From assembly GCF_030818695.1 (NCBI RefSeq), contig NZ_JAUTAR010000001.1, positions 4,086,501-4,150,500 on the forward strand: a DNA stretch of 64,000 nucleotides. Direction: 5' to 3'. Source of the DNA: Chryseobacterium sp. SORGH_AS_0447. GTDB lineage: Bacteria; Bacteroidota; Bacteroidia; Flavobacteriales; Weeksellaceae. A model generated the notes under the pieces. It searched no databases and was not told the origin of the DNA. It was given only the letters and a program-made list of their open reading frames with translations. Each line of letters starts with the position of its first letter. Position 1 is the first letter of the stretch. Position numbers and translations under genes: made by a program. Below, in pieces: positions 49,036 to 53,068 of the stretch.

Positions 49036-49190
49036 TGATGTGACGCTTCGAGAGCCTGGCAGTGTATATTTAGAGTTTAGTTTGAATTAAAAATAGCTGG
49101 GTGATTAAGCAGAATATAAATTTAGACTTATATTAGGATTATGTCATTCTAAGGCTTCTGAAGGATTTCAGTAAGAGATTTGAAAGCATC
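49036..49190. repeat. Diverged second copy of the 47745-47916 repeat
   Basis: It shares GATTAAGCAGAATATAA, a TGTCATTCT/GAAGGAT block and the end TTTGAAAGCATC with the first copy, in the same orientation. Directly upstream is the word GGATTTTCACAGATGATG. Confidence 0.6.
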
Positions 49191-49274
49191 AAAGCTACCG
49201 TGAAGCAGTTTTATAATGAAAGTGAGACGAAGGTGATGGAAAGTAAGTTTGTGGGGATTGAGGGGATTGAGTAA
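49179..49274 (+). pseudogene. Orphan C-terminal tail next to a repeat
   Basis: The frame reads FESIKATVKQFYNESETKVM and ESKFVGIEGIE, then TAA at 49272-49274, followed by a terminator hairpin. The upstream side is repeat sequence and there is no start. It looks like the 3' end of a gene replaced by the repeat. Family not recognised. Confidence 0.45.
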
Positions 49275-49278
49275 AAAA

Positions 49279-49296
49279 CTCCTGAGGTTTCAGGAG
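49279..49296 (+). terminator. Hairpin after the orphan tail
   Basis: CTCCTGA and TCAGGAG form a perfect 7-bp stem with loop GGTT, 4 nt after the stop at 49274. No strong T run follows, but its position supports the tail being a former gene end. Confidence 0.5.
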
Positions 49297-49393
49297 TAAT
49301 AACTGGTGTTTAATGTAAAATATTAGCTTAGTATTTCAGTTATAAAATTTCTATCGTTTTTTGAGATTTTGTTTTAATTTGTATTCTTTAGAG

Positions 49394-49497
49394 CTAGGTA
49401 TTGTTAGGAGCTCCTGAACAGATGGGAAGCTCTGGCGCAATCATTGTTCAGAATACCTCCGGATCCAATCTCCTAAAGCTAATTAGTTGTTTTCAAT
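49394..49497 (-). pseudogene. Possible decayed GG-leader-type peptide gene
   Basis: On the minus strand the frame reads KQLISFRRLDPEVF, then TGA, then TMIAPELPICSGAPNNT and TAG at 49394-49396. The start MKKLISF-K-LD is common in small Chryseobacterium peptides; here an ATTG replaces the expected ATG and an in-frame stop interrupts the leader. This reading is tentative. Confidence 0.3.
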
Positions 49498-49586
49498 CTT
49501 GTATTATTCTAAACAATAGCCTTATCTTATTTTAAAACTTCTTAAAAAGAAAATATAAAAGTCTCTTGCAATAAAAAAGTAGAAAA

Positions 49587-50522
49587 TCAATTCTCATTTA
49601 ATATGCCATTCGCTAACACAATATTCTGTTTTGGCAATTTTTTTTGTCTTATTTTTTTGGCCGAATTGAGCATCTTTATAGATTTTTTGTATTTCAAATT
49701 ATCGGAGAAAATAATAATTTCTTCACCTATTTTATTAGATGTTGATTGTGAAATATTAAATGAGTAAGTTTTAAATTTATTATATGTATCTTTTATAAAT
49801 TGACTATTATCGTAAGATAAAATAAAATCCAAATCCAAATTATTTAAGTAATCGAACAATTTAACGTGATCATTATTTTTGTAAAAATTTAAATAAAGTT
49901 CTGAACCTTTTAGATGATATGGCGGATCTAAATAGATAAAAATAGAATCTAAACTTTTAATATGATTAAGAAAGTCAATTGCATCTAAATTAAAAAAATG
50001 AATGTTACTACGTTTTTCATAAATTAGTCTAATTTTTTCAACAAGCTTACTTTTGTTAAATCTGGCATTAATCTTATATTTACCATTCTGATTTTGCCCT
50101 CCTATAACACCACCTTTTATTACACCAGAAACATTTGTTCGGTTTAAAAAAAATGTAGCCTGTGCAATTTCAAATGGATTATGGTTATGTGCATCATTAA
50201 GTATATTTTTATAATAATGCCAATTATCAACTGTTATTTCTAAGCTCTCAATCCAGTTACAAAATTCATCCGCTTGATTCAAAATACTATTCCAAAATGA
50301 GTAAATAGAATTATCGAAATCGTTTAAATAAATTTCATTTACTACACCTTCAAATAACAGTTTTAATGCAAGACCACATCCTCCTGCGTAAGGTTCAGCA
50401 TATGATTTGCCCAAATATTTATTTTCATTAATTAAGTTGGATACAAATAAGTATAATCCATTCTTTCCACCAGGGTATCTAAGCGGAGAGTAAAATGACA
50501 TTTTTTTTTTATTGGCTTCCAA
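49587..50522 (-). CDS. D12-class (Dam-like) DNA adenine N6-methyltransferase
   Basis: This 311-residue enzyme has the order of D12-class methyltransferases. The N-terminus reads SPLRYPGGKNGLY (substrate lysine motif), then SYAEPYAGGCGLALKLL (AdoMet motif I, F/Y-x-G-x-G) and the catalytic motif IYLDPPYHLKG (D-P-P-Y) near residue 199. It starts 2 nt after the ATPase gene stop, so the two are one operon. The ATG at 50522 is followed by a ten-A run and a second ATG at 50501 (MSFYSPLRYPGGK), which may be the real start. The target sequence is unknown. The gene is AT-rich compared with the flanking housekeeping genes. Confidence 0.9.
   Translation of the reverse strand: MEANKKKMSFYSPLRYPGGKNGLYLFVSNLINENKYLGKSYAEPYAGGCGLALKLLFEGVVNEIYLNDFDNSIYSFWNSILNQADEFCNWIESLEITVDNWHYYKNILNDAHNHNPFEIAQATFFLNRTNVSGVIKGGVIGGQNQNGKYKINARFNKSKLVEKIRLIYEKRSNIHFFNLDAIDFLNHIKSLDSIFIYLDPPYHLKGSELYLNFYKNNDHVKLFDYLNNLDLDFILSYDNSQFIKDTYNKFKTYSFNISQSTSNKIGEEIIIFSDNLKYKKSIKMLNSAKKIRQKKLPKQNIVLANGILNEN
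50501..50510 (-). promoter_or_regulatory. Ten-base homopolymer at the methyltransferase start
   Basis: A run of ten A residues (T on the plus strand) lies between the two in-frame ATG codons of the methyltransferase gene. Length changes would put the upper ATG out of frame and leave the lower one usable. It could allow phase variation or slippage, but no second allele is available. Confidence 0.4.
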
Positions 50523-50524
50523 TT

Positions 50525-52081
50525 TTATTTTTTGAATGTTTCGACAAAATTATTAAAATCAAATATAAACTGATCATATATATCCTTGTTTTTTTGTATC
50601 CACAAATTAATAATTTTACTACAAGTATTCCCACTTCCCCAATATGACTTCTGAGAATTAAACCAATTTTTTGCTTTTATTCGATCAGTTCTTATATCAT
50701 TAATTCCAAATTCATGAAAACACAATTGCTTATCATAACCATTATGTAATTTATCCCAAATATCTGATGATTCTTTTTCGGCATATAGCATTTCAGCTAA
50801 TACTCTTTCTGGAGATTCATTTCCAGGTAATAAAAGAAAATTTTTATAATTTTTTATTACTCGCATATTGTTTGGTTCATTTCTAACATCGCCATCTAAA
50901 CAGATAATACTTTGTGGAAAATTAAAACCGTGTATTTTCTTTCTTACAAGTTCTATGTAATTGGAGCACCCCATAGAACATTGTAAGAAATTTAAGGAAG
51001 ATTTTCTATTTTTTATCAAACCCTTTAAAAATATTTCACCTTCTTTATCTTCAGTAAATACATTTATTTTCAGATCCTTTGGCTTGACAGTTAATGTAAC
51101 CTTTAATTTATTTTGTATGAAATTAAAGGTTGGCTTCTCTATTATATTTATATTATCATCTAATTTTTGAAGATATACAACTTTAATTTGATCTTTTAAT
51201 TTTGTATCCTTTTGATATTCACAGGCTAATTCAATAAGATTTAAAGAATGAGTCGTGAAAATAATTTGAATTTTGTATTTAGAAGAAAATTTTCGTAAAT
51301 ATTCAAATAATTTAATTTGAGATGCTGGGTATAATGTTGTATCAATCTCATCAATCACTAAAATACCTTTTTTATATTCTTGCGGAAATTGTTCTTTTAA
51401 TCTTTTGAAAGATAATATTGATAATAAAATTTTTCCCAGATTATCTTGACCAGCCGAATTCATACTCCAATCATAATAGCTTGTACTAAAACCAATAGTA
51501 TTCTTCTGCTTACTTTCTAAATAATTGAATTCATCAATTTCTAAATCTGGAGTTATTAATATTTTATTATGCCATTCATTAAGTAATTTTACTTCATCAT
51601 CAGATAATGTTATTTTAGAGCTTGCAGAAATGCTACTATCTTCTCCAATTGGAAATAATCGAGACAAGCTTAAATATATTACTGGATATTGTAGATAGCC
51701 AGACCCCTTAGATCTATCACCGCGCTTCCAAAATCTAATTTCTCCCGTTTTCGAATCTCTTATAATACTTTCGATAGTAAAAATAGGATTTTCTTCATCC
51801 ACCGTAAATAATGTCCATGCATGATCCTTTGCTTTGTCGAATGATTTAGATAATTTAAATTTTTCAGAAAAAGATGATTTATAGTTTCCTCCGCAAAGTG
51901 GTTTTTCATTATATAAAGGATTCGTTTTATCAGTAATTGAAAATGGTTGACTTAATAATCCTAAAATTGTAGTTTTTTGAGTTCCATTTTGACCAGCTAT
52001 AATTGTAATATTTTCACCTAGCTCAAAATTTACATTTTTAAATCCTCTAAATTTTTCAATTTGAATTTTATTAATTAACAT
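50525..52081 (-). CDS. OLD-like AAA ATPase with TOPRIM-like C-terminus
   Basis: This 518-residue protein begins INKIQIEKFRGFKNVNFELG, the start typical of SMC/RecF/OLD-type ATPases. Walker A is GQNGTQKTT (30-38). Walker B and the following region read ILVIDEIDTTLYPASQIKLF (about 240), with the H-loop IIFTTHSLNLIELA. Residues about 335-518 hold FTEDKEGEIFLKGL and SIICLDGDVRNE, acidic clusters placed like the E and D-x-D residues of TOPRIM/DUF4435-type nucleases. This matches OLD-family and PARIS-type defence ATPases. It is the first gene of the operon with the D12 methyltransferase. The AT content is high. The TOPRIM assignment is an inference. Confidence 0.8.
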   Translation of the reverse strand: MLINKIQIEKFRGFKNVNFELGENITIIAGQNGTQKTTILGLLSQPFSITDKTNPLYNEKPLCGGNYKSSFSEKFKLSKSFDKAKDHAWTLFTVDEENPIFTIESIIRDSKTGEIRFWKRGDRSKGSGYLQYPVIYLSLSRLFPIGEDSSISASSKITLSDDEVKLLNEWHNKILITPDLEIDEFNYLESKQKNTIGFSTSYYDWSMNSAGQDNLGKILLSILSFKRLKEQFPQEYKKGILVIDEIDTTLYPASQIKLFEYLRKFSSKYKIQIIFTTHSLNLIELACEYQKDTKLKDQIKVVYLQKLDDNINIIEKPTFNFIQNKLKVTLTVKPKDLKINVFTEDKEGEIFLKGLIKNRKSSLNFLQCSMGCSNYIELVRKKIHGFNFPQSIICLDGDVRNEPNNMRVIKNYKNFLLLPGNESPERVLAEMLYAEKESSDIWDKLHNGYDKQLCFHEFGINDIRTDRIKAKNWFNSQKSYWGSGNTCSKIINLWIQKNKDIYDQFIFDFNNFVETFKK

Positions 52082-52391
52082 GATTTGTTTTTAGTTTTTA
52101 GTTTATAATATGATTGCATATAACTTATTTATATCCGCCATATATTACCGGATATACACCCAAATTTGTAATAATAAGCGCTAAATATAAGTAAAAGTTT
52201 TTTAGATTACTTGTAAATTGAAAAACTGGTTTTCTAATATCCAGGTATGTTCAGGAAAATTACTCCATTTATAGCATAAATAACAAATGTAATAATATGA
52301 AATTGTTCATATTTATGGCAATTCGTATTTATACGGAATTTATATATAGAAAATAGTAAAAATGTGAATAATAGTTTTTTCATGGATAGTT
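52082..52391. other. AT-rich intergenic region with one weak small frame
   Basis: Upstream of the ATPase gene there are no clear domains. A 49-codon minus-strand frame (52234-52383) starts MKKLLFTFLLFSIYKF, like a signal peptide, 8 nt after the neighbouring gene ends, but its remainder is not protein-like. It may be a decayed secreted-protein gene. Confidence 0.35.
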
Positions 52392-53042
52392 TTAATTAAA
52401 TGACTCCTTTAAAGTTTTTTCGAGGAAAGAGATTAGTAAATTTCGCTTAGGGCGTAATTCCTTCAGTTTTTCGAGTCTGTAATCGTTAATTTCCTTTTTA
52501 GACTGCATTAACTTATTATGGCGCGTCGTTAAGTTCGCTTCACCTCTAATTATAAAATCAACATCGGAGAAGTGTTTTTCAAATTCATTTTGTATTCCAA
52601 CTAATTTTAAGCTTACTTCTGATCGTAATTCATAAAATTCTGATTCGCCTATAAAAATTTCAATCTCACCTTCTTTTAAATTGTAATTAAATTTTACGGC
52701 ATTTATTCTCTCAAGTAAACTATCATTTTTAGATTTATAGTCATCCCCTCCAATACTTGAATAAGCATGAAATATTAGTCTTTCCCAATTATTGTAGGCT
52801 CCAAAATAATCTAAAACAATTTTTCGTTTTAAAGCATTATAGTCGATCTCTCCACTTGAACGAATATTGATTTTTGACTCTACAGTCTTAATTTTTTCAG
52901 TGATCTCTTCGATGTCTTCTTTGGTTGCCACATTCTTACCCTTTTCCGTAAAATAAGATGGAAAGTAGTTTTTTATTAAGAAGAATAATGCGAGAGTAAT
53001 TACGATTTGTATTACAGTGAAAATCAGAAATTCCCAATCCAT
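52392..53042 (-). CDS. Membrane-anchored coiled-coil protein
   Basis: From the ATG at 53042 the protein has 216 residues. One N-terminal membrane helix (FLIFTVIQIVITLALFFLI) is followed by GKNVATKEDIEEITEKIKTV, a word seen in many Bacteroidota membrane-anchored proteins of unknown function, and by a largely helical charged region ending NLISFLEKTLKESFN. The longer frame starts inside a TATATTTG promoter box at 53061-53068, so the ATG at 53042 is preferred. Function unknown. It belongs to the AT-rich island. Confidence 0.75.
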   Translation of the reverse strand: MDWEFLIFTVIQIVITLALFFLIKNYFPSYFTEKGKNVATKEDIEEITEKIKTVESKINIRSSGEIDYNALKRKIVLDYFGAYNNWERLIFHAYSSIGGDDYKSKNDSLLERINAVKFNYNLKEGEIEIFIGESEFYELRSEVSLKLVGIQNEFEKHFSDVDFIIRGEANLTTRHNKLMQSKKEINDYRLEKLKELRPKRNLLISFLEKTLKESFN

Positions 53043-53060
53043 GTTAATAGTTTTTATTTT

Positions 53061-53068
53061 CAAATATA
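53061..53068 (-). promoter_or_regulatory. -7 promoter box of the coiled-coil protein gene
   Basis: TATATTTG on the minus strand matches TAnnTTTG and lies 18 nt before the ATG at 53042. Confidence 0.5.

Follow-up and report, generated by a model that had tools for sequence, protein, structure and literature searches.

In a 64,000-nt stretch of the genome of Chryseobacterium sp. SORGH_AS_0447 (contig NZ_JAUTAR010000001.1, positions 4,086,501 to 4,150,500; hereafter the window), two adjacent genes on the minus strand specify an OLD-type ATPase and, downstream of it, a D12-class adenine methyltransferase. An earlier note, made from the sequence alone, had proposed them as a candidate defence operon. 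They are designated here components C (ATPase) and B (methyltransferase) and are listed with their features in Table 1. Both open reading frames (ORFs) are intact, both products are full length against the relatives listed, and the whole source genome contains a single match to each of the two families. The intergenic gap of 2 nt given before is correct with a TTG start of the methyltransferase gene; with an in-frame ATG it would be 23 nt. Since close homologues of the methyltransferase start near the TTG position, the shorter gap is plausible. The pair is also AT-rich as noted, with a GC content of 26.1% compared to 39.9% for the window.

Table 1. Features of the ATPase-methyltransferase pair and of its flanks in the window
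Feature	Position	Strand	Remarks
OLD-type ABC ATPase with fused TOPRIM-like domain, 518 aa (component C)	50525..52081	-	ATG at 52081
Walker A, residues 30-38, GQNGTQKTT	51968..51994	-	Coordinates derived from ORF; Gln replaces usual Gly before Lys
TOPRIM-like C-terminal domain, residues 332-518 (187 residues)	50525..51088	-	Conserved E344, D396/D398, E425, K471
D12-class adenine methyltransferase, PD-Lambda-5_B-like, 311 aa (component B)	49587..50522	-	TTG at 50522; alternative ATG 50501
Methyltransferase motif IV, DPPY, residues 199-202	49917..49928	-	Sequence motif
Flank common with genome G005, 80%	49186..49369		Sequence comparison
Flank common with genome G005, 83%	52268..52354		Sequence comparison

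The N-terminal part of component C bears out the assignment to the OLD family. It scores 66 bits with Pfam AAA_15, for which the cut-off is 32.1 bits, and Walker B (IDE), the signature (SAGQD), and the histidine of the H-loop (H278) are kept. In P-loops, the residue preceding the Lys of Walker A is usually Gly; in the window it is Gln, and 37 of the 42 ATPase sequences compared read GQNGTQK[TS]. Phage phiNP and an Acinetobacter copy have GKNGTSKS, the usual Gly is present in the copies of genomes G057 and G353, and the aligned sequence of phage Javan645 shows no residue there. Apart from a Lys replacing the Walker B Glu in locus L016, these sequences show nothing unusual in Walker B, signature, or H-loop. 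Relatives of the protein are now named just 'AAA family ATPase' or 'ATP-dependent nuclease'.

For the C-terminus, a region like TOPRIM or DUF4435 had been suggested. The TOPRIM part of this suggestion stands by predicted fold and residue pattern rather than by Pfam. The model of the domain is confident (predicted local distance difference test score 94.1) and TOPRIM-like, with modest structural match scores, the best PDB match being the C-terminal region of an OLD protein, and the E, DxD, and K residues of OLD-family TOPRIM domains are in place. DUF4435 was in no answer from Pfam searches of the ATPase or of its C-terminal domain. When the domain alone was searched against Pfam with 34 family members, nothing consistent was obtained, and when solved structures were searched with a profile of the domain, just three helical-repeat chains were returned, at E-values of 0.24 or worse. 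The VIA listing for the C-terminal model contains mostly receiver domains, families missing from it not being excluded thereby; the VIA run on the whole ATPase model covers about residues 1-330 only. The pattern of E, DxD, and K recalls the catalytic residues of GajA, for which E379A, D511A, and K541A abolished cleavage according to the accessible text of PMC8136825.

Component B is best matched among PADLOC models by PD-Lambda-5_B (PDLC04018; 355 bits, residues 8-287), followed by a type II methyltransferase model at 292 bits. The earlier description as a Dam-like D12 enzyme is thereby sharpened; the match to TIGR00571 (dam) reaches 72.5 bits, under the model cut-off of 114.85. No Pfam match was obtained for the protein at E-values up to 1.

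A scan with the single ATPase protein yielded no relative; an alignment-based scan of genome contigs yielded 39 named loci of the ATPase family, to all of which profiles for the ATPase, the methyltransferase, and PD-Lambda-5_A (component A) were applied. A methyltransferase gene is near the ATPase gene in 35 of them, in several gene orders, and an adjacency confined to this strain is clearly excluded. Among the remaining four, the contig ends at the gene in L042 and L043, L044 is a short fragment, and L031 is a true exception. The arrangements observed are C-A-B (L009-L017, L019, L022-L024, L035), A-B-C (L007, L008, L015, L040, L045, and the viral L051 and L052), A-C-B (L029, L030, L032-L034), convergent (L025, L041, the viral L053, and phage ValB1MD-2), and divergent (G124, L097). 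Looser arrangements are found in L036, with the methyltransferase gene 3.8 kb off and no A, and in L039, with two genes in between; in L018 the contig ends within the methyltransferase gene.

The arrangement of the window, in which C and B share a strand and A is missing from the DNA examined, recurs in seven of the 39 loci (L020, L021, L026, L027, L028, L037, L038). Their hosts are Alphaproteobacteria, a methanogen, Chitinophaga, Lentisphaerae, Oxalobacter, and Muribaculaceae, and the distance between the two genes ranges from an overlap to 196 nt. Beyond the 39 loci, the same A-less C-B order was detected in phages phiNP and Javan645, in an Acinetobacter record that is labelled a plasmid although it has the size of a chromosome, in genome G353 (contig of 4.8 kb), and in two Psychrobacter plasmids, where the ATPase gene spans the record start in one case and is split in two pieces in the other. 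Altogether, the gene pair occurs in bacteria, one archaeon, and phages. The ATPase family is rare in the phylum, since just six of 395 genomes drawn from it contain an ATPase at an E-value of 1e-80 or better; the methyltransferase is near in four (window, G124, G297, G353), but not in G057 and the stop-bearing G231. Contig sizes were also compared, taking in 119 of 120 listed methyltransferase homologues. For 29 of 120 listed ATPase homologues, seven of them among the 14 closest, the longest contig has the same size to the base as that of a listed methyltransferase homologue, compared to 0-2 matches after shifting sizes by 1-10.

Some of these loci contain further genes. In the two Muribaculaceae loci, the C-B pair is directly preceded by a gene for a protein of some 1,340 aa (L037 1965-5999, L038 1950-5936), and that of L037 matches type IIG restriction-methyltransferase models. 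A methyltransferase of this family is also found in L036 (7596-12258) and L060 (4986-9427) near a 460-490-aa protein and a larger partner, HerA-like in L060, possibly a further partnership.

The type of B, together with an A-type gene in 26 of the 39 loci, gives the pair a known neighbour system, PD-lambda-5 (PD-Lambda-5_A and _B; Vassallo et al. 2022). Counted among the 26 are the cut A of L008 and the short A of L012, and since the profile used (A3) was built from 23 proteins mostly of these loci, its matches there are partly by construction. When the PADLOC models for PD-Lambda-5_A were run on ten neighbour proteins, eight matched, those of L010 and L014 at just 28-33 bits, and the neighbours of L037 and L031 did not. 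GNRR is invariant among the A-type proteins, two of those scanned show a sub-threshold match to ParB_N, and one record is named 'ParB/Srx family N-terminal domain'. A and B without the ATPase are present on Kosakonia and Vibrio maritimus plasmids. In the source genome, component A was detected neither with PDLC04017, which was silent in the 14 control genomes as well, nor with profile A3, and the pair has an OLD-type ATPase-TOPRIM protein instead. Thus, the locus lacks a defining component of PD-lambda-5 yet shares B and the usual company of B. The PADLOC models seen for PD-lambda-5 are A and B only, and none of them matches the ATPase. PD-lambda-5 needs an mrr-deficient host, which suggests that its methylated site is other than the GATC of Dam.

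Two further observations concern component A. In Vibrio phage ValB1MD-2 (L054 8067-9619), it is specified by two adjacent genes, gp41 and gp42, next to the methyltransferase gene, with a convergent ATPase gene and near an integrase gene. In the PADLOC model PDLC04607 (PDC-M38A, 715 positions), A-type proteins weakly match the N-terminal part and these ATPases the C-terminal part, as though the model described an A-ATPase fusion; for the name PDC-M38 no paper was found in the literature searched.

Comparison with other OLD systems gave a different set of partners. According to the accessible parts of PMC10568477 and PMC12796447, the OLD classes 1-5 (single gene, Gabija, retron, PARIS, and Cran1, class 5 being archaeal) either have no partner or have one of another kind, and none of them includes a methyltransferase. 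Component C resembles these proteins in that a TOPRIM-like domain bearing E, DxD, and K follows an ABC ATPase, but differs from them in the Gln of its Walker A and, as far as the classes are described there, in its partner, a D12 methyltransferase and not a helicase, a reverse transcriptase, or a separate TOPRIM gene. Neighbourhoods of TOPRIM-linked OLD-ABC proteins were surveyed by Aravind and colleagues, according to the accessible part of PMC12839542, where the work is cited. In the literature searched, mainly open-access and in part available as excerpts, no OLD nuclease with a dedicated methyltransferase is described, a prior mention in Krishnan et al. 2020 or Dot et al. 2023 being possible. 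The earlier note knew of no standard system with exactly this two-gene order; it has to be amended in that B belongs with PD-Lambda-5_B and A is a frequent neighbour in the family.

Among individual systems, the highest PADLOC score of component C was obtained with the ATPase-TOPRIM model of type I-B retrons (PDLC02914; 88.7 bits), which aligns to residues 237-454 and thus through the TOPRIM region, and retron Eco8 was the first Foldseek match for the whole ATPase model. However, the genome contains no RVT_1 match (found in three of 14 control genomes), and no Rfam RNA reached the gathering score between 47000 and 54700. GajA of Gabija is likewise a fused ATPase-TOPRIM protein of similar fold and catalytic pattern, but no UvrD-type helicase gene (GajB) adjoins the ATPase gene, all three UvrD-helicase matches of the genome being outside the window. 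With PARIS, scores were 61.2 bits for AriA and 42.8 bits for AriAB, both under the retron I-B model. The ATPase mad3 of MADS, a multi-gene system linked to methylation, gave a weak PADLOC match of 43.8 bits, but only 20.8 bits against the NCBIfam mad3 cut-off of 420 bits.

The surroundings of the pair argue for acquisition, as had been supposed. It lies between two housekeeping genes, which we take to be mazG and a DUF5606-like gene, and these are 5.9 kb apart in the window compared to 0.1-0.3 kb in nine of 12 genomes of the same genus. In two of the other three (G654, G232), the DNA examined did not include mazG. The third, G005, which has the most similar DUF5606-like gene, shows a distance of about 5.5 kb and carries another cassette between the same two flanks (Table 1). 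The segment exchanged between the two genomes, 49369-52268 in the window, contains the two genes of the pair as the only ORFs regarded as genes. The claim that the pair is bounded by repeats holds weakly; the repeats found, all on the methyltransferase side, are a 51-nt direct repeat (80%; 47823 and 49103) and a few short families. The cassette of G005 (L094 857-3732) specifies a trypsin-like peptidase, whose protease part also matches retron RT-Protease XI models, a DUF6864 protein, a 104-aa protein, and an HNH_5 protein, and is perhaps another defence unit. The ORF at 52392-53063, which separates the pair from the DUF5606-like gene of the window, specifies a protein of 223 aa with a membrane-like segment at its N-terminus. 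This protein was left out as a module member because it gave no informative Pfam or PADLOC match and had no relative among 51 other loci searched.

Copies of the module, with or without PD-Lambda-5_A, are located in a chromosomal insertion site, on plasmid records, and in temperate phages, the phage copies being near integrase or excisionase genes. That C and B have no role in defence and are stability or regulation genes of mobile elements, acting in addiction like restriction-modification (R-M) genes or in prophage DNA control, would agree with the several phage and plasmid copies near integrase, excisionase, or recombinase genes. We nevertheless regard it as unlikely, since PD-lambda-5, which includes a B-family gene, protects Escherichia coli against phages according to the accessible text of PMC9519451, and OLD-TOPRIM proteins of other systems are defence effectors as far as their descriptions were accessible.

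The distribution of A could also mean that C is an optional third subunit of PD-lambda-5 and that the window locus, having lost A, is decayed and no longer a working unit. The frequency of A-type genes in the family fits this explanation, as does the lack of an A match in the source genome; L007 and G124, the two nearest to the window in a tree of 42 ATPases, carry A. However, both genes of the window are open, full length, and with motifs kept, and loci without A recur: the tree requires at least eight changes in the presence of A, six of them forced by well-supported branches, the positions of L061, L098, and L100 being unsure due to long end branches. Moreover, two close metagenomic relatives apparently lie together with a B homologue on contigs of 2,553 and 2,841 bases, as judged from equal size, and these would not have room for a whole A as well. 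Decay is therefore improbable.

In all probability, the pair is an anti-phage system not yet classified and akin to PD-lambda-5. The explanation we tentatively favour is that it is a mobile two-gene module against invaders, in which an NTP-gated (nucleoside triphosphate-gated) TOPRIM nuclease of the OLD type depends on its companion adenine methyltransferase. B would methylate its site throughout the host genome, C would be kept inactive by nucleotide, by modified DNA, or by both, and DNA without the mark of B would be cut by C. Discrimination between self and non-self would then reside in B and cleavage in C. In most relatives, A would add a further layer specific for A and B, that is PD-lambda-5, which the window locus would do without. 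The asymmetry between the two genes, C being seldom found without B while B also occurs without C, is the pattern of a nuclease with a protecting methyltransferase.

The same asymmetry also fits a guard role of C. In that case C would be inactive as long as B, with A if present, works or binds C; a phage blocking or bypassing the methyltransferase would free C, nucleic acid would be degraded, and the cell would die, comparable to PARIS, which answers inhibitors of R-M or BREX systems. The OLD-TOPRIM effectors of PARIS and retrons are described as abortive in the accessible literature. Such a role is possible and, ranking just behind methylation licensing, nearly as likely.

Sequence divergence speaks for the guard and against licensing. 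Over the 25 loci with all three genes, which leave out L012 (A of just 207 aa) and L054 (A in two pieces), distances of A and B agree (Mantel r 0.62, p 0.001), whereas those of the ATPase hardly agree with B (r 0.17, p 0.04) and not clearly with A (r 0.11, p 0.07). Over 13 loci without A, the value for ATPase and B is again low (r 0.17, p 0.10). In L009 and L012, ATPases are 80% and methyltransferases 42% identical; in L022 and L023, the ATPase is 77%, A 83%, and the methyltransferase 44% identical. C therefore appears to tolerate divergent B. This lack of co-divergence is the main counter-argument, as it would fit a specificity-matched R-M pair poorly unless the methyltransferases share one site. 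A segment LNRTNxSG...GGxIGG..Q.G, which we assume to be the recognition part from a comparison with Dam, is largely kept in 40 aligned methyltransferases, save for a switch that is mostly V/I or R, and these enzymes may share one or two recognition sites. This weakens the argument and makes co-divergence a blunt test. The guard explanation is in turn disfavoured by the seven named loci and the window, which keep C and B without A and would leave the methyltransferase alone to be guarded. Licensing by methylation is preferred because the pair without A recurs and because of the asymmetry of C and B.

We read component C as a representative of a methyltransferase-linked class of OLD nucleases, outside classes 1-5 as far as these are described in the accessible sources, and as a PD-lambda-5 partner missing from the PADLOC models. 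The more far-reaching proposal is evenly balanced in our judgement: a distinct class defined by the D12 methyltransferase and licensed by methylation, found both as a stand-alone pair and as an unrecognised third component of PD-lambda-5, with C as a generic nuclease among interchangeable A-B cassettes. How OLD-type ATPase-nucleases separate invader from self is under current study for Gabija according to the accessible text of PMC12407980, and a class tied to a methyltransferase would give a concrete and testable answer. If the proposal is true, the parts list of PD-lambda-5 would change, and genes currently carrying only a general ATPase or nuclease name would gain a context.
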